DNA from: an uncultured Bacteroidia bacterium
Lineage (GTDB): Bacteria; Bacteroidota; Bacteroidia; Bacteroidales; UBA932
NCBI GenBank assembly: GCA_902784965.1
Contig: CACZWU010000011.1
Location: 1-53,911, forward strand
Reading direction: 5' to 3'
DNA: 53,911 nucleotides
The translations under genes and the position numbers were made by a program. The notes beneath the pieces were generated by a model. The model was not told the origin of the DNA, did no database searches, and saw nothing but the letters and a program-made list of their open reading frames with translations. Within the stretch, counting starts at the first letter, position 1. Every line of letters begins with the position of its first letter. Below, one piece after another: positions 8,257 to 53,911 of the stretch.

Positions 8257-11200
8257 GCGATCGCAAACTGTCCTTCCTCCGCCTGCGCCGCTTCCTGGTG
8301 CGCTACGGCAGCCACGTGCTGTTCGTGCTGGCCATCATCCTGCTGGCCCTGGCCAACATCCGGCCGGACTATAACGCCGACCTCAGGCGGCAGGTGGCCC
8401 GGGTGGAGCGCTCGTTGCACAAGCGGGAACTGCTGGCTGAGAAATACGCCCTGAAAGTGTTTCAGCAGGAAGATGCCGACTGGGTCGATTTCGACGACAT
8501 GCCCGAGGACATCGTGCTCTACTGTTACCAGGCCGACACGATGAAGTGCTGGACGCACCAGTTCCCGATCAACAACGACGAGGTGGACGTCTACCCGTAT
8601 TCCTACCGGCTGCAGTTCATGAGCAACCGGAACCTCTATGCCAATCCGCTGGCCTACATCGGCATCGAAGAGAAATACGTGAATCTGGGCTCCGGCTGGT
8701 ATGTGGTGACCACCCATTTCAAGCGCGACCGCAAGACCAAGGTCGTGACGGGTATCCTCATCAAGACCGAATATCCCGGCAGCGCGGTACAGAACGTCGT
8801 CAACAAGCACCTGAAACTGAAGGACGGCTACACCACCGTCGCCATCAGCGACGACGATGCGGCCATCGTCTACGGCATCGAGGAAGGGCCGCTGTTCTCG
8901 GTGGTGCCGACCACACCGCCCACGCCCGGACACGGCAACATGCCGATGCGCTGGATCGCCTTTGCGCTGATGCTGCTGGCGGTGTTCCCGTATCATTACC
9001 GGCACCATACCTGGAAGACCTTCTCCCTGGCGATCGGCGTGCTGGTCCTGGTCCGCCTGATGGCCTTCTATTATGTGGGGAACGGATATGCGACAGGCAA
9101 TATCTTCTCGCCGGTGCTCTATGCCGACACGGCGCTGTTCAGCTCCCTGGGCAGCCTGTTGCTCAACAACCTGGTAGTGGCCTTCGCTTTCTATGCGTTG
9201 TTCGTGATGCGCTACCGCCTCCACCGGCAGGTGGAAAGAAAGTCCGTAGCCGGGCAGTGGACCGTCATCGGCGGGCTGATCGTGCTGGGCGTGGCCCTGA
9301 TGGGATACATCCACTACGTGATGCGATCGCTGATCCTCAACTCCAGTATCGTGATGGAGCCGCACCGCATCGCCGACATCGGCATCTATGCCATCCTGAG
9401 CTACCTGACCTTCGCGATGCTCTTCCTGGCGCTGCTCTACCACATCTATATGGTGGTCCTGCTCATCCGCGGGGATGCCCACGTCAATCTCTTTTCCTGG
9501 CGCAACCTGATGACCTATACGGCGATCATCGCCCTGTACAGCGTGGTGGCCATCAACAATTACGGCCTGGTCAAGGAATATGAGAGCAACCGCGTCAATA
9601 CGAGCAAACTGGCCGTAGAGCGGGACCTCTCCCTGGAAATGTTCCTGCGCGACGTGGAACCGGCCATCCAGAGCGACCCCTTCTTTGCGGTGCTGACCAC
9701 CGTAGGCGGGACGGAGATGATCAAGAACCGTATGCTGGAGCGCTACCTCTACAACGATGTGGTCCGCAAATACGACATCACGCTGACCACCTGCTCGGCC
9801 AACGACCTGATCACCCTGGGCGAGGGGCAGGAGCCCCGCAACTGCTTCTCCTTCTACAAGGGGATGATCGACGAGTACGGCGTGCAGCTGGCCGCCGGTT
9901 CCAATATCTACTACCTGCACGATTACAATGGCCTGGCTTCCTATCTGGGCGTGTTCGCCTATCCCGATCCAGCTACTTATAAAGTGTCGTGGCTCTTTAT
10001 GGAACTGGAGTCGAAATTCCGCAACGACGTGGTTACCAATCCGCTCGATGCCCTTACGACCCAGGCCAGCACGGCGCCCACCCTTTCGCGCTATTATTCG
10101 TACGCCCGCTATTCCGACGACCGGCTGGTGTCGCACGGCGGCAGTTATGACTATCCGGTGAATCCCCCCGAAGACGCGCGGGCCGGTTACCAGATGATCA
10201 ACCGGAACGGCTATCTTCATTTCGTCAACCGGATTTCGGACGAGGACGTGACGATCGTGTCGCGCCCGCGGCGTCCTTTCTTCCCGCACGTGGTGTCGTT
10301 CTCCTATTTGGCCATCTTTTATGGATTGTTCCTGCTGCTGTTCACGCTGCGCTGGCGCCGGGAGAAACTGTTCAACCTGCCGAAGCATTCCCTCAAGCGG
10401 AAGATCACCCTGTGGATCACCCTGACGATGGTCGTGGCCCTCGGTTCGATGGGCATTGCCAGCGTCGTCTATGTGATGCGTCTCAATCGCGAGAACAACC
10501 GCGAGGCGATGGACCACCTGATGGCCTCGGCACAGACCCTGTTGTCGGAGCCCTGCCGCTATGCGCTGCGCTACAACGAAATCAATTCGCCGCAGCTGTT
10601 CAATGCGATGGAGGAGTTCAACAAGGTCACCCGCCACGACCTGCATCTCTATAATATCCACGGTGAACTCATCCGCTCCACCAAACCCGAGCTCTTCGAC
10701 CAGTACCTGGTGGGCAAACGCATGAGCAACCGGGCCTTCCGGCAGATCGTCAAGCAGCACCAGCTGCGCTTCATCGACCTGGAAAGCATCGCCGGTGTCA
10801 GTTTCTACTGCATCTACGAGCCGGTTTTCAATGGCGACGGCACGATGGTGGCCATTGCCGCCGTACCCTATTTCACGCGCAGCGAAGACGTGACGGACGC
10901 CACGTCGAGCACCATCTCGGTCGTGGTCAACATCTATCTGATCCTGCTGATCGCCGCCATCGTGATCGGCGCCCTGATCTCCAATTCCCTGACCCGGCCG
11001 CTGGCCGAGATCAAGGAACGTATCGACCGTCTGGCCTTCACGGGCAACCGGAAGATCCGCTACCGCAACACGAAAGACGAGCTGGGCGTCCTCATCCAGT
11101 CGTACAACAAGATGGTGGAAGACCTTGAGGAAAGTTCGCGGCGCCTGGCCCAGAATGAGCGCGAGCAGGCCTGGAAGGAAATGGCCCGCCAGATTGCCCA

Positions 11201-11855
11201 TGAGATCAAGAACCCGCTGACGCCCATGAAACTCAGCATTCAGTATCTGATGCGGCTCAAGGAGGAGAACGTACCGGGCTGGGAGGCGAAGCTCGAAAGC
11301 GTGAGCAAGTCGCTGCTGGAGCAGATTGACACCCTGTCGCAGACCGCCACGGAGTTTTCGTCGTTCGCCCGGTTCTACAGCGAGGAGATTACGCGCATCG
11401 ACCTGTGCGAATTGATCCTCGAGCAGCGGGAGCTGTTCGACAACCGCGAAGACCTCCGCTTCGAGTTCGTCCATCCGGAAGAAGGGGAGGCCTTGGTGGA
11501 TGCCCGCCGCAGCCAATTGGCACGCGTAATGGTCAATCTCATCACCAATGCCATCCAGGCCATCGACAATGCCGGTACGCCCGACGGACAGATCCGGATC
11601 TCGCTGACGCCGGCCCGGCTCAATGGGGCCGCCGCCTGGCAGATCGACGTGGAGGACAACGGCCCCGGTGTGGGGGACGAGGATCTGACAAAGCTCTTTA
11701 CGCCGAATTTCACCACGAAGAAGACCGGTACCGGGCTCGGCCTGGCCATCTGCCGCAGCATCGTCGAACAGAGCCAGGGCACGATCGCCTACAGCCGCTC
11801 CGAGCTGGGTGGTGCAAGATTTACGATTGTATTACCGGCGGTTTCGCTCGCCTAA
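8253..11855 (+). CDS. Large membrane sensor histidine kinase, NtrY-like
   Basis: At 1200 residues it is unusually long. Order: transmembrane helix (about 14-34), extracytoplasmic sensor (35-225), a block of about six helices (228-440), a second sensor region (450-675), helices near 680-700 and 718-742, a third extracytoplasmic segment, a helix at about 888-911, HAMP (912-965), HisKA with H983 in QIAHEIKNPLTPMKLS, and HATPase (about 1085-1196) with N box, DNGPGVG and GTGLGLAI. It should autophosphorylate on His983. The convergent NtrC-type regulator four bases away is the obvious partner. The multi-helix block between sensors is more elaborate than in classic NtrY; the signal is unknown. Confidence 0.9.
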   Translation: MSDRKLSFLRLRRFLVRYGSHVLFVLAIILLALANIRPDYNADLRRQVARVERSLHKRELLAEKYALKVFQQEDADWVDFDDMPEDIVLYCYQADTMKCWTHQFPINNDEVDVYPYSYRLQFMSNRNLYANPLAYIGIEEKYVNLGSGWYVVTTHFKRDRKTKVVTGILIKTEYPGSAVQNVVNKHLKLKDGYTTVAISDDDAAIVYGIEEGPLFSVVPTTPPTPGHGNMPMRWIAFALMLLAVFPYHYRHHTWKTFSLAIGVLVLVRLMAFYYVGNGYATGNIFSPVLYADTALFSSLGSLLLNNLVVAFAFYALFVMRYRLHRQVERKSVAGQWTVIGGLIVLGVALMGYIHYVMRSLILNSSIVMEPHRIADIGIYAILSYLTFAMLFLALLYHIYMVVLLIRGDAHVNLFSWRNLMTYTAIIALYSVVAINNYGLVKEYESNRVNTSKLAVERDLSLEMFLRDVEPAIQSDPFFAVLTTVGGTEMIKNRMLERYLYNDVVRKYDITLTTCSANDLITLGEGQEPRNCFSFYKGMIDEYGVQLAAGSNIYYLHDYNGLASYLGVFAYPDPATYKVSWLFMELESKFRNDVVTNPLDALTTQASTAPTLSRYYSYARYSDDRLVSHGGSYDYPVNPPEDARAGYQMINRNGYLHFVNRISDEDVTIVSRPRRPFFPHVVSFSYLAIFYGLFLLLFTLRWRREKLFNLPKHSLKRKITLWITLTMVVALGSMGIASVVYVMRLNRENNREAMDHLMASAQTLLSEPCRYALRYNEINSPQLFNAMEEFNKVTRHDLHLYNIHGELIRSTKPELFDQYLVGKRMSNRAFRQIVKQHQLRFIDLESIAGVSFYCIYEPVFNGDGTMVAIAAVPYFTRSEDVTDATSSTISVVVNIYLILLIAAIVIGALISNSLTRPLAEIKERIDRLAFTGNRKIRYRNTKDELGVLIQSYNKMVEDLEESSRRLAQNEREQAWKEMARQIAHEIKNPLTPMKLSIQYLMRLKEENVPGWEAKLESVSKSLLEQIDTLSQTATEFSSFARFYSEEITRIDLCELILEQRELFDNREDLRFEFVHPEEGEALVDARRSQLARVMVNLITNAIQAIDNAGTPDGQIRISLTPARLNGAAAWQIDVEDNGPGVGDEDLTKLFTPNFTTKKTGTGLGLAICRSIVEQSQGTIAYSRSELGGARFTIVLPAVSLA

Positions 11856-11859
11856 AGCA

Positions 11860-13020
11860 TCAGATCGACGGTGTGGCGTAAGCCGCGACGTCCGCGGCCG
11901 TAATCTCCGGGCCACAGAGAATCATCAGACGCTCCGCCACGTTGCGAAGCTCACGGATGTTGCCCGTCCAGGGCAGCTTCTGCAACTCCGCGACGGCCTC
12001 GGGCGTAACTTTCTTTTTCGCCATGCCCGTCTCCTGGCAGATCTGGTCGATGAAATAGTCCATCAGCTGCGGAATGTCCTCGAGGCGCTCCCGCAGGGCC
12101 GGCACCTGGATGACGATGACGCTCAGGCGATGATAGAGGTCTTCCCGGAACGTGCCCTTGGCGATTTCCTCGGTGAGGTTCTTGTTGGTGGCGGCTACCA
12201 CGCGCACGTTGACGGTGATGTCCTTGTCGCTGCCCACGCGCGAGAGTTTCTTCTCCTGCAGCACGCGCAGCACTTTCGCCTGGGCGGCCAGGCTCATGTC
12301 ACCGATTTCGTCGAGGAAAAGCGTACCGCCCTCTGCCTGCTCAAACTTGCCCTTGTGCTGCTTGATGGCCGACGTGAAAGCACCCTTTTCGTGACCGAAG
12401 AGCTCGCTCTCGATGAGCTCGCTCGGAATGGCCGCACAGTTGACCTCCACGAAAGGAGCCGCGGCGCGCGGACTCTTGTCGTGCAGGCGGCGGGCTACCA
12501 GCTCCTTGCCGGTACCGTTGGCACCCATGATCAGGACACGGGCGTCGGTCGCAGCCACACGGTCGACGATTTCCTTGATATGTTCGATGGCAGGGGAACT
12601 GCCCACGATGTCGTATTTGCTCTGGATCTTCTTCTTGAGACTCACCGTCTCCTTGACCAGCGAGGTCTTGTCGGTCGCGTTCTTGAGCGTGATCAGGATA
12701 CGGTTCAGGTCGAGCGGTTTCTGGATGAAATCGTAGGCGCCTTTCTTGATGCACTTGACCGCCGTGTCGATGTCGCCATGGCCCGAAATCATGATGATGG
12801 AAGCTTCACAACCCGAAGCCACCAGTGTCTCGAGCACCTCGTTGCCGTCCATCACCGGCATCTTGATGTCACAGAAGATGGCGTCGAAGCTCTCGGCCAG
12901 CGCCTTGTCCACGCCCTGCTTGCCGTCTTCGGCCGTGGTCACCTCATGCCCTTCGAATTCGAGGATTTCCTTGAGGGTATTGCGGATGCTGCGCTCGTCG
13001 TCGATAATCAGAACCTTCAT
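11860..13020 (-). CDS. Sigma-54-dependent response regulator (NtrC family) lacking a DNA-binding domain
   Basis: The frame runs back to 13125, but the ATG at 13020 begins the receiver (MKVLIIDDERSIRNTLKEI) and has a -7 box just upstream. The 386-residue protein has a receiver domain with phosphoacceptor D51 (CDIKMP), a linker and an AAA+ domain with Walker A GANGTGKE, the sigma-54 loop as GAFTSA (canonical GAFTGA) and Walker B GGTLFLDEIGD. It ends soon after NIRELRNVAERLMIL with no Fis-type helix-turn-helix, unlike classic NtrC of about 470 residues. It probably activates sigma-54 polymerase on phosphorylation by the convergently encoded kinase; without an HTH it would act from solution or through a partner. 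Confidence 0.9.
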   Translation of the reverse strand: MKVLIIDDERSIRNTLKEILEFEGHEVTTAEDGKQGVDKALAESFDAIFCDIKMPVMDGNEVLETLVASGCEASIIMISGHGDIDTAVKCIKKGAYDFIQKPLDLNRILITLKNATDKTSLVKETVSLKKKIQSKYDIVGSSPAIEHIKEIVDRVAATDARVLIMGANGTGKELVARRLHDKSPRAAAPFVEVNCAAIPSELIESELFGHEKGAFTSAIKQHKGKFEQAEGGTLFLDEIGDMSLAAQAKVLRVLQEKKLSRVGSDKDITVNVRVVAATNKNLTEEIAKGTFREDLYHRLSVIVIQVPALRERLEDIPQLMDYFIDQICQETGMAKKKVTPEAVAELQKLPWTGNIRELRNVAERLMILCGPEITAADVAAYATPSI

Positions 13021-13043
13021 AGAGAGAATTTTTTCACAGACTA

Positions 13044-45340: not shown

Positions 45341-45413
45341 GACTCGCTAGCTCAGTTGGTAGAGCACAGCACTTTTAATGCTGGGGTCTTGGGTTCGAGC
45401 CCCAAGCGGGTCA
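45341..45413 (+). tRNA. tRNA-Lys (anticodon TTT)
   Basis: The 73 bases fold as a standard cloverleaf. The acceptor stem GACTCGC pairs with GCGGGTC (one T-G pair), the D-arm contains AGCTCAGTTGGTAGAGC, the anticodon arm CAGCA-CTTTTAA-TGCTG gives anticodon TTT, and the T-arm has GGTTCGAGCCC. The discriminator is A and CCA is not encoded. Confidence 0.97.
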
Positions 45414-45454
45414 CAAAAAAGAATAGCAGCCGTAGCTGCTATTCTTTTTTGTGA
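45411..45454. terminator. Perfect 20-bp hairpin overlapping the tRNA 3' end
   Basis: Bases 45411-45430 are the exact complement of 45435-45454 around a CGTA loop. The 5' arm includes the last acceptor-stem bases and the discriminator of the tRNA. Its A-rich and T-rich arms make it a terminator in both directions. Confidence 0.8.
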
Positions 45455-45456
45455 CC

Positions 45457-45483
45457 GAGCCAGCCCTGAGCTGGCTCTTTTTC
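45457..45483 (+). terminator. Second terminator after tRNA-Lys
   Basis: GAGCCAG (45457-45463) pairs with CTGGCTC (45471-45477), followed by TTTTT. Confidence 0.75.
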
Positions 45484-45575: not shown

Positions 45576-45606
45576 TTTGATTATTTGTATTTTTTATATA
45601 TTTTTG
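45576..45606 (+). promoter_or_regulatory. Promoter of the signalling operon
   Basis: TTTG (45576-45579) and TATTTTTG (45599-45606) are 19 bases apart in an AT-rich region, 38 bases before the ATG at 45644. No other promoter is obvious in the downstream overlapping genes. Confidence 0.6.
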
Positions 45607-45643: not shown

Positions 45644-46807
45644 ATGGCAGTTAAAATTCTCAGCGTTGACGATGAAACCGATCTTGAGTTGCTGTTGACG
45701 CAATATTTCCGTAGAAAGATCAGAAAAGGCGAATATGAGTTCTTCTTTGCCCATAACGGACTGGAGGCACTGCAGATCTTATTGAAGAATCCGGATATCG
45801 CCATCATCCTTTCGGATATCAATATGCCTGAGATGGATGGATTGACCTTGCTGGCCAAAGTCAACGAGATGCGTAACCCGTCGCTCAAGTGCATTATGGT
45901 CAGTGCCTACGGTGACATGGACAACATCCGTCACGCCATGAACAACGGGGCCTTTGATTTCGCCACCAAACCGATAGACCTGGATGACCTGCAGATTACC
46001 ATTGACAAGGCTGTAGAGCAGATCGATTATATCCGGAGCGCCCAGAAGGAACATGCGCAGCTGGTGGATATCCAAAGTGACCTGTCTGTTGCCCGCGAGA
46101 TCCAGCAGGGTATCCTGCCCCGGACATTCGACCTGAAAATGGCAGAATCCGAAAAGGTGGACATTTATGCCAGTATGCTGGCCGCCAAGGATGTGGGCGG
46201 TGATTTCTATGACTTCTTCCCGATCGACGACCACCGGATGGGATTTACAATCGCCGATGTGAGCGGCAAAGGCGTTCCGGCGGCCATCTTCATGGCGGTC
46301 AGCCATACGCTCATCAAAGCGATCGGCACGCATATCCAGTCCCCGGAAGAATGCATGAAGACAGTCAACGACATGCTTTGCGATGAAAGCGTGAACTCTA
46401 TGTTCGTGACCGTTTTCTATGGCATTTACGACATACAGACCGGTCTTGTCGAATTTACCAACGCCGGACATAATCCGCCTTTCATCCTTCGCGCCGACGG
46501 CGCAGTCGAGATGTTGAAGTGCTCCTGCAACCTGGTGCTCGGTGCAATGGGGGGCATCCCTTACAATAAAGAAACGCTTCAACTGAACGAAGGCGACTCC
46601 CTCGTGATGTACACCGATGGCGTGACCGAAGCCGAGGACAAGGACCACGCCCAATTCGGAGAAGACAGGCTGGCTGCTGTGCTGGCTGAACTGAAAGGCG
46701 CTCCCAGCAAGCAGATCGTCGACACCATCAACATCCGGGTCATTGAGTTTGTCTCCGGCGCGCCGCAGAGTGATGATATTACACAACTAGTAATCCGCAG
46801 AAAGTGA
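45644..46807 (+). CDS. Response regulator with PP2C/SpoIIE-type serine/threonine phosphatase output
   Basis: The 387-residue protein has a receiver domain (1-125) with acidic pocket DDE, phosphoacceptor D58 in LSDINMPEMDG and the conserved Lys in ATKPIDLDD, a coiled-coil linker (REIQQGILPRTF), and a PP2C/RsbU-like domain with metal-binding DVGGDFYDFF, DVSGKGVPAA, NAGHNPPF and the final SDDITQLVIR. Phosphorylation of D58 should switch the phosphatase, which in RsbU-type systems acts on an anti-anti-sigma (STAS) protein; none is in view. It is the first gene of an operon with two kinase-like genes, which probably control it. Confidence 0.93.
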   Translation: MAVKILSVDDETDLELLLTQYFRRKIRKGEYEFFFAHNGLEALQILLKNPDIAIILSDINMPEMDGLTLLAKVNEMRNPSLKCIMVSAYGDMDNIRHAMNNGAFDFATKPIDLDDLQITIDKAVEQIDYIRSAQKEHAQLVDIQSDLSVAREIQQGILPRTFDLKMAESEKVDIYASMLAAKDVGGDFYDFFPIDDHRMGFTIADVSGKGVPAAIFMAVSHTLIKAIGTHIQSPEECMKTVNDMLCDESVNSMFVTVFYGIYDIQTGLVEFTNAGHNPPFILRADGAVEMLKCSCNLVLGAMGGIPYNKETLQLNEGDSLVMYTDGVTEAEDKDHAQFGEDRLAAVLAELKGAPSKQIVDTINIRVIEFVSGAPQSDDITQLVIRRK

Positions 46808-48458
46808 AACCCCGTTCAATCATAGTGTCGTCTCTGATCGCATTGGCCGTCATCGCCGGTGTGGCTATCGTCGCCTATCAGTTGGGCCGTCGGCAGTCCC
46901 GGCAGGAGTTGGCCGCGGTGCAGGAAGAGATGGACCGGCTGGTGGCCGCCGAGAAGGATGCTGCCATCGTGAAGCGTGTCAGCCAGCAGATGGAGGATAT
47001 CGCCTATCAGCAGAAAGCGATATCCGACCAGCAGCGTGACCGTGCCGAAGAACAGTCCAACCTGGCTATCCGGAATGCCGCACGAGCCGAGATGGAGAGC
47101 CGGGCCGCCCGTGAAGCGGAGCGAAAGGCGAATGAGGCTGCAGATGTGGCTGAAAAGGAACGAGCCAATGCGGAGCGGCAGCAGGAGATCGCGCTGGAAC
47201 AAAGGGATGAGGCGACGTATGCAAGGAATGTGGCAGATACCTTGAACCGGCGCACGCAGGCAAAAGGCCTGGCAGTGAGCTCTCAGGTCCGGCGGGAGGC
47301 CGGCGAGACCGAGGTGGCCGACATTCTCGCCTATGCCAGCTGGTATTTCCTCAAGAGTAACAGGGGCAACCAGTATTATTCTGAAACCTTCAAATCCCTG
47401 GCTCAGGCCACTGGCGGCATTCCGCGCTATAAGGTCCGGGAGGGCGGCGCCGTAAATGCCATCTCGCAGGTACCCGGCAAACCCGGGCAATGTGTGGCCG
47501 CAACAAACTACGGAGAGGTGGAATGGCTTACCGCGACCGTGAACAACGGAGCCCGGCGGATTACTTCCACGGTTTTGTTGTTCGATCCTGCGTATGATTT
47601 CAGGGATGTGCAGGTTCTGTCCGGGAAGATCTATGCTCTTTCCCTCAAGGGTCCTTTGTGCATTCTGGACTTCAAGGGAGACAAGGTGATCGTGCCCTTG
47701 CCTGACGATGACTACTTCAAACTGCTGCCGGTACGGGGGCGCCTGCTCGTGGCGGGACGCCGGAGCCTGTGCTGGTATGCTGACGGAAAGATTTCGGTAC
47801 AAGCGAGTCTGAGCAAGCCCTTGTCTGCCATTGTCGAGCGGGAAGGCAGCGTCTGCCTGTTTTATGCTGACGGCTCCTATGCTGAGATGGATTCTTCCGG
47901 CCGTATTGCAGAAGAGGCCCCTTTGGTGAAGGAAGTGGTTACGGCCGCTCATTATGATAAGGCAGGCAGATGCCTGTTGCTTGGAGTGGAAGACGGCACG
48001 GTATATCCTGTCAACAGATACAACCGCGTCCTGGAGACGATGTCCGCCCATAAGGCCAGGTGTATGAGCATGGATATGCTCGGCTCGGTCGTTGTTACGG
48101 GCGGATATGACAAGTCTGCGTACATCTGGAATCTGGACAATATGCCCTTTGAGAGCGGATTGTCTTTCCACGAGGAGCTGGAGACGAAAAGCGCCGGCAA
48201 GCGTGTGGCAAACGGCAAGGAGGTTCCGGCAGAGTGGCTGGTGCCGGTGGATTATTCTTTTGACGGGTGGACGCTTGCCGTATGCGGTGACGCGGACGGG
48301 AAATCCGTGTGGATCGGGACCTCTGCAGGAAGTGTCCTCCTGCTGAATACATCGGCTGACGGCATGGCTGCGCAGCTGTACGACAAAATCAACCGTAATC
48401 TGACCCAACAGGAATGGACGCGCTATGTTGGTGCATCCATACCATATATGACGTTCAA

Positions 48459-48462
<4 letters not shown>
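46804..48462 (+). CDS. Membrane-anchored coiled-coil/beta-propeller (WD40-like) protein
   Basis: GTG at 46804 overlaps the upstream stop (GTGA) and starts a 552-residue protein. It has one transmembrane helix (about 6-27), a long charged coiled coil (about 30-160, rich in Glu, Ala, Arg and Gln) and a beta-propeller (about 195-520) with late WD40-like repeats (VVVTGGYDKSAYIWNLDN; SVWIGTSAGSVLLL). The C-terminal NRNLTQQEWTRYVGASIPY is the ending of WD40 domains of STAND-type signalling proteins, but there is no NTPase domain. It looks like a scaffold or sensor tethered to the inner membrane. The partner is probably another product of this operon. Confidence 0.85.
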
Positions 48463-51125
<2,663 letters not shown>

Positions 51126-51135
51126 GATAACTGAT

Positions 51136-52002
51136 ATGAGCGAAGAAGATATGGAAAGCCTGAAGAATCAGGTGGAAGACTTGCAGCAGCAGTTGCAAAA
51201 ACAGGACAAGATGGCATCCTTGGGGCTGCTCAGTGCCGGCATTGCCCATGAAATACAGAATCCGCTGAATTTTGTAATCAATTTCAGCAAGATGTCGGTC
51301 AAGTTGCTGGATGACCTGAAGGATATATTGGATGACTGCGCGGACAAGCTGGATGCGGATGACGCAGCCGACCTGGAAGACATCTCGGCGGACCTCAAGG
51401 AGAATCTCTCCAAGATCCAGGAGCATGGCGAGCGGGCCATCAGCATCATCCGGGGCATTTTGCAGCAGAGCCGCGGCAAGTCCGGAGAGATGCTTCCCAC
51501 CGATGTGGGGCAGCTGGTCCACGAATACGTGTGGCTCAGCTATCACGCCATGCGCGCCAATGACAAGAGCTTCAATATCACCATCCGGGAGGAAATACCG
51601 GGGGATATGCCCAAAGTCATGGTCATCCCACAGGATATCAGCCGGGCCGTGCTCAATGTCATGAACAATGCCTGCTATACGGTCAAGGAGCGGGCAGGCC
51701 AGGAGGGTGAGGACTATAAACCGGAAATAGACGTGAAGGTTTCACTGGATCCCGACGGCAATGGCGGGGGAGAACTCCGGATCGTCATCCAGGACAACGG
51801 CATGGGTATGACGCCTGAGGTCAGGGAAAAGATATTTGAGAACTTCTTCACCACCAAACCGGCCGGTCAGGGGACGGGGCTGGGAATGAGCATAACCTAT
51901 GAAATCATTACCAAGAACCATAACGGCCAGTTGCTCGTGGAATCCGAACCGAAGGTCGGATCCACGTTTACGTTCATCATTCCTGTAAAGATTGTAAAAT
52001 GA
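51136..52002 (+). CDS. Soluble sensor-less histidine kinase
   Basis: The ATG at 51136 (MSEEDMESLKNQVEDLQQQ) gives 288 residues with no membrane segment. A coiled coil (about 5-28) leads into a DHp with phosphoacceptor H38 (GIAHEIQNPLNFV) and a GHKL ATPase with N box NVMNNACY, DNGMGM and GTGLGMSI. It should autophosphorylate. It lacks any input domain; the upstream pseudokinase has the same DHp/ATPase type and could supply input by heterodimerising. The first gene of the operon offers a receiver. It overlaps the receptor gene by ATGA. Confidence 0.93.
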   Translation: MSEEDMESLKNQVEDLQQQLQKQDKMASLGLLSAGIAHEIQNPLNFVINFSKMSVKLLDDLKDILDDCADKLDADDAADLEDISADLKENLSKIQEHGERAISIIRGILQQSRGKSGEMLPTDVGQLVHEYVWLSYHAMRANDKSFNITIREEIPGDMPKVMVIPQDISRAVLNVMNNACYTVKERAGQEGEDYKPEIDVKVSLDPDGNGGGELRIVIQDNGMGMTPEVREKIFENFFTTKPAGQGTGLGMSITYEIITKNHNGQLLVESEPKVGSTFTFIIPVKIVK

Positions 52003-53911
52003 GAATCAAAGGATACCTTTTCGCCCTCGTTCTTCTTTTCCTTTCGTATGCCGTCAGGGCTCAGGATGATACGCATCTGTATGAGTCGGCGCAGGAGGCA
52101 TACGAGTACGGATTGTTTGCGAGGGCTGACTCTCTTTTGAGCAGTTCAGCGAGCAGTTTCAAGGGAGAGGACCGGATCGGCGTGTACAGACTGCTTGCAT
52201 TGTGCAACCTGAACATGGACAAGCCCGAAGTAGCCGAGAAATGGGTCGCCAGGCTGCTGGCTGTCGATCCCTACTACAGCGTTTATAACGATGCTCCGCG
52301 CTTTGCCGAGATGGTGAACCGGCTCAAGGCCGGCAAGACAGCCACGATTACTACGGCTTCCCAGCAGGCCGAGTCCATTGAAGAGGCGCCTGTCCCCGTG
52401 ACGCTGATTACGGAAGAAATGATCAGCATGAGCGGCGCCCGCAACCTGAAGGAAGTACTGACCGCCTATGTGCCCGGCATGTCCCACATCGAGTGCAACG
52501 AGGAGATGAACATTGCCATGCGGGGCATCTATGCGAGCCGGCAGGAGAAGATGCTCATCATGTTGAACGGTCACCGGCTGAACAGCTATTCGACCAATGC
52601 GGCTGCTCCCGATTTCAGTATCAGCCTGGAAAAGGTGAAGCAGATTGAGGTCCTGCGGGGACCGGCTTCGTCGTTGTACGGTGGTGTGGCATTGACGGCT
52701 GTGATCAATATCATCACCAAAGATGCGGCTGATGTCGACGGGTTGAAGATCAAGGCGAGTGTCGGCAACTATGGACAGCTGAAAGGAGACCTGCTGTTCG
52801 GCAAACGCTATATGAACCTCTCGATCCTGGCGTGGGCAAACATCTATCGGTCGACCGGCGAGTCTTTTGAAGTAGGCTATGATGACCAGCCGTACGCGCT
52901 GATTCCGAACCCCGGCACCATCACCATCGGCGGCTACAACAAGAAACCGACTCATGACCTGGGCCTTACGCTGCAATGGAAAGACCTGACTTTCACGTTT
53001 AACAACACCTTCTCGAAGACAGTGGCTCCCTACTCCATGAGTATGTTGTTCACAGCGTATCCCTACGAAAAATATGGCGTCTTCAACGGGAACAAACCGG
53101 GCTTCGGGACTTCTTCCAACTATTTTGACCTGAAATATGAAAAGAGTTTCGGAAACTGGGGAATTTCTGCCAATGTGACTTACGACGCGGCCACCCAGCA
53201 GCAGTATCAAGTGTGCGGAGATCTTTCCCCGGTGGGTTTTTACCTGATCCCGAACGCTACGACCGACACAGTCTACGTGGGCGATGGTTTCTTCCAAAAC
53301 CATATCTGGGGTGAGCATACGCTGGGCGGACATCTGCAGGGCAGTTACAGCAAAAAGTGGGGGAAACACGACTTTGTCGCCCTCCTGGGCGCGCATTCCA
53401 ACCGGATGGACTTGGAATATAGCTATTATGAGGAAGGAGATGATTTCAATCGTGTCATCAAGGTTTGGGACGAATCCAAGAACCTGATGGTGAACTACGA
53501 GATGAGTGCGGACGCCTATTTACAGCTGAAGTACAAATGGAACGACATGTTCATCGTCAATGCCGGTGCCAGATACGACTTCAAACGCCGTTACAACTAT
53601 TTGGACGACAAACATGAGAATATCAATGTGCTCTCGCCGCGTGTCGCATTCATCATGAACCTCCCTGCGTTGACCGCCAAGTTGTCGTATTCCAAGGCGT
53701 TTGTGGACGCCCCCTACTTCTATAGGAACGGGCGATTTGACACCTCCTGGGGAGGCGGACTCGAGCCCGAGTACCTGCATTCCCTCCAGGCTTCTTTCTC
53801 TTCAAATAAGATCGCCCCGAACCTGTGGGCGGAAGTGAACGTCTTCTACAACAGGTTCACGAATCTGGTTTTTTACGATGCCGGGGCGCTGATCTATCTC
53901 AATGGCGGTTC
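51999..53911 (+). CDS. TonB-dependent receptor with N-terminal TPR-like domain, 3'-truncated by the window
   Basis: The ATG at 51999 overlaps the kinase stop (ATGA). The visible 637 residues have a signal peptide (about 1-21), a helical TPR-like domain (about 25-105, with DPYYSVYNDAPRFAEMVNRL), a plug domain (about 120-240, EAPVPVTLITEEMISMSG to GPASSLYGG) and the first strands of a beta-barrel with aromatic-rich turns. The layout resembles CirA/BtuB-type receptors. The periplasmic TPR-like domain is an addition to the standard plug. It would import a substrate across the outer membrane using TonB energy, or act as the signal receiver for the preceding kinases. No SusD partner is seen in the window. 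Confidence 0.9.
   Translation, partial: MRIKGYLFALVLLFLSYAVRAQDDTHLYESAQEAYEYGLFARADSLLSSSASSFKGEDRIGVYRLLALCNLNMDKPEVAEKWVARLLAVDPYYSVYNDAPRFAEMVNRLKAGKTATITTASQQAESIEEAPVPVTLITEEMISMSGARNLKEVLTAYVPGMSHIECNEEMNIAMRGIYASRQEKMLIMLNGHRLNSYSTNAAAPDFSISLEKVKQIEVLRGPASSLYGGVALTAVINIITKDAADVDGLKIKASVGNYGQLKGDLLFGKRYMNLSILAWANIYRSTGESFEVGYDDQPYALIPNPGTITIGGYNKKPTHDLGLTLQWKDLTFTFNNTFSKTVAPYSMSMLFTAYPYEKYGVFNGNKPGFGTSSNYFDLKYEKSFGNWGISANVTYDAATQQQYQVCGDLSPVGFYLIPNATTDTVYVGDGFFQNHIWGEHTLGGHLQGSYSKKWGKHDFVALLGAHSNRMDLEYSYYEEGDDFNRVIKVWDESKNLMVNYEMSADAYLQLKYKWNDMFIVNAGARYDFKRRYNYLDDKHENINVLSPRVAFIMNLPALTAKLSYSKAFVDAPYFYRNGRFDTSWGGGLEPEYLHSLQASFSSNKIAPNLWAEVNVFYNRFTNLVFYDAGALIYLNGG

Follow-up and report, generated by a model that had tools for sequence, protein, structure and literature searches.

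Here we describe a conserved operon of Bacteroidales that would form a signalling module running from the outer membrane to the cytoplasm, in which a TonB-dependent receptor probably controls an intracellular phosphatase switch, a reading to which we give a probability of about 60%. The window, 53,911 nt from an uncultured Bacteroidia bacterium of the UBA932 lineage, is the whole of contig C11 of its assembly. The original prediction of a receptor-to-phosphatase pathway is partly supported by our analysis, and gene coupling together with co-variation suggests that the receptor acts upstream of the kinases.

Organization and recurrence of the operon

An open reading frame check of the window recovered all five predicted genes, each on the + strand, with successive junctions of −4, −4, +10 and −4 nt. 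The first gene (45644..46807, 387 aa) encodes a receiver-SpoIIE (PP2C) phosphatase, REC-SpoIIE, with Pfam Response_reg and SpoIIE matches, and the second (46804..48462, 552 aa) encodes CCprop, a protein with an N-terminal transmembrane segment, a helix of ~140 residues and a propeller of the seven-bladed type (weak WD40-type Pfam matches; AlphaFold pLDDT 84.6). The third (48459..51125, 888 aa) encodes psHK, a periplasmic propeller sensor pseudokinase, and the fourth (51136..52002, 288 aa) encodes HK, a soluble histidine kinase with Pfam HisKA and HATPase_c matches above cut-off; an alternative HK start is available at 51091. The fifth (51999..53911) encodes the TonB-dependent receptor, with a Pfam Plug match and an N-terminal periplasmic domain of ~110 residues. 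This extra domain is present as predicted, with weak likeness to TPR (TPR_19 falls below cut-off in one orthologue).

The contig stops inside the receptor gene after 637 aa, compared with 781–848 aa in complete relatives, and the gene resumes on contig C9 of the same assembly (G000:C9), which opens with the receptor C-terminus at 95% identity across 134 overlapping residues; the mismatch is strain variation, and the two contigs do not overlap exactly. Beyond the receptor, C9 carries an AMP-binding/PP-binding protein and then an LPG_synthase_TM protein. The five-gene operon of the original prediction therefore holds for the genes and their coupling but not for its end, since two more genes follow past the contig.

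A Bacteroides-type promoter match (TTTG, 19 nt, TANNTTTG; 45576..45606, + strand) lies 37 nt 5′ of the first gene. There are 4 such matches in the window against 0.29 expected, and none within 45644–53911. The interval between tRNA-Lys and the operon also contains a terminator-like hairpin with a T tail (45457..45477, + strand), of a kind no more numerous in the region than chance predicts (6 found, 7.6 expected), and scans of the region for sigma-70-type promoters and terminators gave results no better than chance.

The same five-gene order occurs at 19 loci in gut and rumen Bacteroidales, with the −4 nt HK–receptor junction kept in 17. These loci fall into 8 flank groups, 7 with flanking sequence and an eighth (L049) without any flank. 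Recurrence across 19 loci and 7 flank groups points to a conserved module and rules out chance clustering; the homologues are not scattered among relatives, the outcome that the original prediction had named as counting against it. The module is rare, a point against the main reading, occurring in 5/40 host-genus genomes and in 0/13 of those with at least 90% completeness and at most 5% contamination, and CCprop was found in 3/393 genomes of the order. PHROGs and PADLOC searches returned no family for CCprop, generic kinase matches for HK and one weak LeoA match for the sensor coiled coil.

An Asp pseudokinase paired with a His kinase

A motif scan verified the predicted H38 (HK) and D58 (receiver) as well as the D648-R649 pair that replaces His-Glu in the sensor. 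Opened to any residue at the phospho-His site, the scan returned 100 HE, 31 DR and no other motif across 90 loci. Every one of the 19 five-gene loci has one DR and one HE kinase, while the DR kinase is absent from 10 loci with a single HE sensor kinase next to REC-PP2C. In 29/31 collected loci the DR kinase has an HE kinase next to it, and the remaining two (L048, L050) end before that position. The open scan provides the unbiased count; our gene-order survey sorted kinases by residue (Asp denoting psHK), so its 31/31 Asp is by construction. An unbiased pattern search recovered five D-kinase sites, two of which (both in G621) have no adjacent REC-PP2C and one no kinase neighbour; these exceptions count against the main reading. 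All 33 of the 33 Asp kinases tested form a single clade reaching Cytophagales (support 100/99; L048 was omitted because its core is too short), and on this tree the D kinases have a single origin.

The ATP-site motifs of psHK (N788, D826-N-G-x-G830 and G854-x-G856) are kept in at least 93% of 31 alignment rows; the corresponding alignments comprise 29 rows for HK, 22 for CCprop and 20 for the receptor, where L054 and L063 are represented by their second receptor. The psHK ectodomain matches the BT4663/BT3049 hybrid two-component sensors in Foldseek (4a2l/3v9f, E 3.7e-22), with which it shares a periplasmic propeller and Y_Y_Y domain (Pfam Y_Y_Y and Reg_prop matches are weak and below cut-offs). 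In contrast to these proteins, psHK ends at HATPase_c, lacking the phospho-His, a fused receiver and a DNA-binding domain, and we rejected its membership of the hybrid two-component class. The sensor is a pseudokinase that has lost the phosphate-accepting His and seems to depend on its partner kinase.

With Asp at the DHp His position, psHK would take up no phosphate there; it keeps its ATP site and may act through HK, its ATPase domain phosphorylating H38 in a mixed dimer or psHK gating HK allosterically. FasB/FasC/FasA (PMC12675982) provides a comparable mixed dimer of two kinase-like proteins that split the labour of ATPase domain and phospho-His; here an ancient clade has fixed the split as Asp versus His, and a phosphatase takes the place of a DNA-binding regulator as output. 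A less likely competitor to phosphate donation is that psHK inhibits HK by locking it in an inactive mixed dimer, the mechanism suggested for RetS and GacS. The fixed D-R in place of H-E fits this idea, and RetS is reported to interfere directly with GacS autophosphorylation (PMC2904497), whereas the ATP-site motifs kept across the 31 rows would be needless in a pure inhibitor, a point that is not decisive because HK has a complete ATP site too.

The receptor and its relation to the kinase core

We compared pairwise gene distances across 15 loci, leaving out L049 with its split sensor ORF and cut receptor (a separate topology count left out L051, whose start codon was called too late). Distances agree closely for CCprop and psHK (r 0.92), psHK and HK (r 0.89) and PP2C and HK (r 0.74), and least for the receptor against the other module genes (r 0.50–0.63), which we count against the main reading. 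The receptor N-terminal domain on its own tracks psHK at r 0.68–0.70 in the 15 loci and at r 0.97 in the host-genus set, where the barrel does not track psHK and instead diverges in step with the downstream enzyme (r 0.99).

It is rather doubtful, in our judgement, that the core is psHK-HK-PP2C(-STAS-RsbW) alone, with CCprop and receptor as passengers or regulated targets, such as co-translated uptake cargo, and not the signal input. This account draws on the receptor's weak distance agreement, on a divergent receptor in G030 (L021), on tandem receptors at L054 and L063 and on nine loci that carry psHK-HK-PP2C without CCprop or receptor (L053, L065, L066, L083, L075, L077, L078, L079 and L170), so that in Tannerellaceae, L066 and Cytophagales the receptor is dispensable to the core. 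It is opposed by the 4-nt HK–receptor overlap and by the N-terminal domain that follows psHK when the barrel, in the genus set, does not. That the genes merely share a conserved chromosome stretch with no joint function is very improbable and largely refuted: 8 Prevotella-type loci and the host-genus loci do share flanking genes inside their own group, but the order is kept over 7 flank groups, the genes overlap by 4 nt and the D and H kinases are fixed as a pair.

TonB cell-surface signalling of the FecA/FpvA type also sets signalling genes beside a receptor whose N-terminus carries an additional periplasmic domain. Here, however, no STN domain precedes the plug (Pfam up to E 0.1 gives Plug and one sub-threshold unrelated match), a TPR-like domain stands in its place, and neither the five genes nor the two that follow include a FecR-like anti-sigma or ECF sigma gene; we rejected membership of the FecA type.

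Returning to the receptor as signal input, a tentative and rather speculative extension is that the host-genus operon acts as a self-sensing circuit. Its AMP-binding/PP-binding enzyme would make a small amino-acid-derived molecule that LPG_synthase_TM, where present, helps to place or export; the barrel would recognize it, and the N-terminal domain would plug into a constant core in which the Asp pseudokinase has to rely on a distinct His kinase. Barrel and enzyme would be swapped jointly, forming a specificity cassette comparable to the receptor–synthetase pairs of siderophore or quorum systems, and the circuit would end in a partner switch instead of a sigma factor or a regulator that binds DNA. 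The specificity codes of the AMP-binding domains, read by eye at the GrsA positions, appear different between the two types and were not used as evidence.

The phosphatase and its probable partner-switching output

The receiver acidic pair D9 and D10, phospho-Asp D58 and K109 are invariant in 7 sequences, as are the SpoIIE-type metal-binding residues D187, D205, D325, D377 and D378 (SpoIIE Pfam match 2.5e-53). The best PDB sequence match of REC-PP2C is 3eq2, presumably a receiver-PP2C response regulator of the PA3346 type. STAS and RsbW-type genes lie near REC-PP2C in 12/94 scanned loci, among them two of the 19 five-gene loci, and Parabacteroides has the order STAS-RsbW-sensor-kinase-PP2C (STAS-RsbW-psHK-HK-PP2C in Parabacteroides acidifaciens). 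These neighbours in relatives support partner switching as the probable output, as judged from gene content. The flanks of the other 17 five-gene loci, some of them short, contained neither gene, a point against the main reading. In the host genome the only STAS gene and the best RsbW-type gene are next to another PP2C on a separate contig, so the partner sought by the original prediction exists nearby in some relatives but not here, and its claim that a single transcript reaches a partner-switching output is untrue of the window. We rejected mere presence of STAS in a genome as evidence, since 39/40 host-genus genomes carry one.

Discussion

Each step of the signal flow from receptor to phosphatase is inferred from sequence, and the same holds for the way CCprop sits in the membrane, for the ligand and final target, and for the sign of the receiver effect. 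A ligand would bind the TonB-dependent receptor, whose N-terminal TPR-like domain would signal in the periplasm to psHK and to inner-membrane-anchored CCprop, the long helix of which could span the periplasm. Phosphorylated HK would pass its phosphate to D58 and thereby set the SpoIIE phosphatase, acting on a STAS protein under the control of an RsbW-type kinase.

The module is a variation on kinds of signalling already known. In Mycobacterium smegmatis RsfS/RsfR-RsfB, a histidine kinase likewise governs a phosphatase of the receiver-PP2C kind, which removes phosphate from a STAS antagonist; as far as the accessible text describes it, that system has one competent kinase and no pseudokinase, outer-membrane receptor or propeller protein, and phosphorylation lowers phosphatase activity (PMC10950880). 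Given this precedent, the receiver effect here may have either sign. HptB-PA3346-PA3347 of Pseudomonas aeruginosa (PA3345-PA3347 region) has a receiver-PP2C regulator of the same domain order acting on an anti-anti-sigma protein, but the available part of the source gives it an Hpt phosphorelay input and an operon without a receptor (PMC2904497). At L048 and L127 the module is linked with STAS, isoamylase, STAS and RsbW-type genes, an arrangement shared with the Synechocystis icfG cluster, whose phosphatase is not described within such a receptor operon in the accessible portion of the account (PMC12329169); both loci also carry GlcNAc_2-epim and DJ-1 genes. The icfG-type set of PP2C, RsbW-type kinase, two STAS and isoamylase is absent from the window. 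Our literature search, which covered papers outside subscription, found no account of a TonB receptor combined with a pseudokinase/kinase pair and PP2C partner switching, a result that falls short of proving absence.

Histidine pseudokinases with Asp-Arg for His-Glu emerge as a compact, ancient family found nearly always beside a working partner. If the main reading is right, the fixed psHK/HK pairing allows a direct test of what pseudokinases do in two-component signalling, the exchange of barrel and neighbouring enzyme gives a testable guess at the ligand, and Bacteroidales would have a pathway by which a receptor in the outer membrane reaches a switch driven by a phosphatase.

The operon and its continuation

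The five ORFs of the original prediction are all present on the + strand at 45644–53911 as described, and their tight coupling was borne out by junctions of −4, −4, +10 and −4 nt. Pfam domains are Response_reg and SpoIIE in gene 1 (REC-PP2C, a receiver–phosphatase), a weak WD40-type match in gene 2 (CCprop, a transmembrane/coiled-coil/propeller protein), weak Y_Y_Y/Reg_prop matches plus HATPase_c in gene 3 (psHK, a propeller sensor pseudokinase with Asp-Arg (DR) for His-Glu (HE)), HisKA and HATPase_c in gene 4 (HK, a soluble HE kinase) and Plug in gene 5 (the TonB-dependent receptor). Upstream lie a tRNA-Lys gene (45341–45414) and, 37 nt 5′ of gene 1, a match (45576–45606) to what we take to be the Bacteroides-type promoter consensus; our window scan with this assumed consensus gave four matches against 0.29 expected, with no other near or within the operon. 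Elsewhere, window positions 11106–13026 carry a further kinase on the + strand and, on the − strand, a receiver-like match.

The receptor is cut off because the window is the entire contig C11 of its 1.87-Mb, 78% complete assembly (G000). Contig C9 of G000 begins with a receptor C-terminus matching the window copy at 95% over 134 residues, a mismatch that is strain variation, followed by an AMP-binding/PP-binding protein and then by LPG_synthase_TM. Beyond its AMP-binding and PP-binding domains, the former protein has ~240 residues without a Pfam match, thioesterase-like by eye only. Downstream on C9 (L040:5014–15763) are genes that by eye resemble sugar-nucleotide, flippase and glycosyltransferase genes, in the style of a surface-polysaccharide locus.

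Conservation of the five-gene order

Using a seven-sequence PP2C alignment as query against 84,980 species genomes, we kept the best 80 loci of at least 433 relatives, divided into the best 37 (L047–L083) and the other 43 (L084–L126). The best 37 comprise the five-gene order (14 loci), psHK, HK and PP2C only (8), a single HE kinase with PP2C (8), loci with no kinase motif detected (5) and two, L048 and L050, that reach a contig border after the sensor; in L048 other genes also intervene between PP2C and CCprop. A motif scan of the remaining 43 kept loci found no kinase with DR (D kinase). The same order recurs across Bacteroidales in at least 19 five-gene loci (the 14 listed, the window and four more genomes), with a sensor–kinase distance of ≤25 nt in 19/19, an HK–receptor overlap of −4 nt in 17/19, and −4 junctions between CCprop and sensor in 13/19 and between PP2C and CCprop in 10/19; the L049 sensor is split over two ORFs. 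By flanks, 22 loci form 11 groups and the 19 five-gene loci form 8, L049 among them without flanking sequence; eight non-independent Prevotella-type loci share a common context. The five-gene set is real and conserved, well outside chance.

The sensor occurs in 5/40 genus genomes and in 0/13 of those ≥90% complete and ≤5% contaminated, PP2C in those five and also in G047 and G051, which belong to other families, and CCprop in 3/393 order genomes, its own genome counted. The module is therefore widespread but patchy. An rnf flank is common to the window and genome G023 and absent from G003 and G026, a distribution that suggests movement of the module.

A pseudokinase–kinase pair

A DHp motif scan of 90 loci, open to any residue, returned 131 motifs (100 HE, 31 DR, no other pair). 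Each of the 19 five-gene loci has exactly one DR and one HE, and none of ten loci with REC-PP2C and a single HE kinase has a DR kinase; HE is also present in the partner kinases of Larkinella and Dyadobacter, which the motif pattern missed. ATP-site residues of psHK are conserved (31-row alignment), and a tree built from 72 kinase cores places the D kinases in one clade (33/33, support 100/99), while for PP2C itself two changes between the states are needed. As an unbiased test, an exact DNA pattern for DRILNPxNY was run on 395 Bacteroidota genomes, giving five sites in three genomes and none with a reversed control. Three sites (window, G144 and one in G621) adjoin a kinase and REC-PP2C and two, both in G621, do not (L169 beside other kinases, L168 alone), so the pairing is strong, not absolute. 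G144 and L053 are apparently the same organism, with identical STAS, RsbW, sensor and kinase. We consider that psHK probably acts through HK, and that HK likely signals to the REC-PP2C receiver.

Two other arrangements were seen. In Hymenobacter rubidus (L079:4326–9947) a pair of D kinases, of 1243 and 307 aa, precedes one HE kinase and REC-PP2C. L128:9356–16572, an apparent intermediate, combines CCprop and REC-PP2C with a propeller sensor that is still HE; it lacks a separate soluble kinase, and its STAS and RsbW genes are divergent.

The CCprop AlphaFold model (pLDDT 84.6, first 60 residues poor) has one helix spanning residues 5–165, then a propeller matching WD40 propellers, and C-terminal helices. 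Invariant alanines A81, A88, A102, A116, A123, A130 and A137 are spaced by multiples of seven, and 141 residues at 1.5 Å would give ~210 Å, which in principle could cross the periplasm. The transmembrane segment is more positive on its N-terminal flank in 20/21 loci (one tie; L051 dropped), just +3 versus +2 in the window, and this flank charge suggests a periplasmic propeller. The sensor ectodomain resembles BT4663/BT3049 and its cytosolic part histidine kinases (model pLDDT 80.5, pTM 0.57).

The receptor and its neighboring enzyme

Distance agreement between genes (15 loci, genus collapsed) was 0.74–0.92 without the receptor versus 0.50–0.63 with it; by receptor domain, it was 0.65–0.73 for the N-domain, 0.53–0.64 for the barrel and 0.35–0.41 for the plug. 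Across six genus-group genomes, barrel identity tracks the AMP-binding enzyme (r 0.99, versus 0.46 for HK), whereas the N-domain tracks psHK (0.97, versus 0.44 for the enzyme); the 15 pairs compared are not independent, and two of the barrels are partly cut. Between the window and G023, kinases are 90–92% and N-domains 90% identical, against 47% for the barrel and 38% for the enzyme, and DNA identity falls from ~90% to ~55% near 52.5–52.7 kb; G003 and G026 have the opposite pattern (barrel and enzyme 98–99%, kinases 92–95%). The enzyme and the module occur in exactly the same 5/40 genus genomes, and in G030 the enzyme follows a receptor C-terminus on another contig; among the downstream genes listed for Prevotella-type and other loci, where flanks are short, no AMP-binding gene came after the receptor. 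Because adjacent genes can swap together without joint function, this co-variation is a lead, not proof. That the receptor is the input of the pathway stands at even odds. Tandem pairs of such receptors follow the kinase at L054:16464–21156 and L063:16342–21154, and a diacylglycerol-kinase-like ORF, by eye, lies directly 3′ of the receptor at L062:18791–19834.

A likely partner-switching output

STAS and RsbW-type genes lie near REC-PP2C in 12/94 loci (L022, L048, L053, L055, L065, L067, L076, L080, L081, L083, L127 and L128; L167, a duplicate of L053, is left out), with identities Pfam-confirmed for L048 and L053. Parabacteroides and other Tannerellaceae have the order STAS-RsbW-psHK-HK-PP2C. 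On one strand, L127:6505–18505 encodes GlcNAc_2-epim, STAS, isoamylase, STAS, RsbW, DJ-1, PP2C, CCprop, psHK, HK and receptor, and in L048:10001–18561 the epimerase-to-DJ-1 set sits between PP2C and CCprop. STAS/RsbW were not seen in the available flanks of 17/19 five-gene loci, and G000 has one STAS only and a best RsbW-type domain fused to DAGK, both of which flank another PP2C, of Cache type, on contig C16. Output via STAS/RsbW is nonetheless likely.

The C16 cluster (L024:4310–8784) comprises a DAGK/YegS–RsbW-type HATPase fusion, a 328-aa protein, a Cache-HAMP-SpoIIE phosphatase and STAS, and G023 (L173) has the same arrangement. Other PP2C genes in G026, G003 and G000 (L171, L172 and L025) adjoin large ORFs that resemble AMP-binding enzymes. 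L171 and L172 also have STAS, and partner switching may recur beside NRPS-like genes. In a Prevotellaceae MAG (L055:7513–9967), an HD-type protein (alarmone-hydrolase-like by eye), RsbW, STAS and RelA_SpoT (Pfam) lie 5′ of the five-gene operon on the same strand, hinting at a link of partner switching with alarmones.

Relation to known systems

Tested examples of HK to REC-PP2C to STAS signaling are RsfS/RsfR/RsfB, where receiver phosphorylation lowers phosphatase activity (PMC10950880), and HptB–PA3346–PA3347 (PMC2904497). Division of labor within a mixed dimer is described for FasB/FasC (PMC12675982), and a pseudokinase working via a partner for ChrS (PMC9491836). The icfG cluster combines a phosphatase, kinase slr1861, STAS proteins slr1856 and slr1859 and isoamylase slr1857 (PMC12329169), and the L127 and L048 sets resemble it in phosphatase, RsbW-type, two STAS and isoamylase genes. 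The literature searched yielded no description of an HK/REC-PP2C/STAS chain whose operon also encodes a TonB receptor and a propeller protein, nor of this Asp-Arg pseudokinase clade. In agreement with the original prediction, the parts are known already and the five-gene combination was not encountered in that literature, and we place the probability that the five genes form one functional unit at about 95%.
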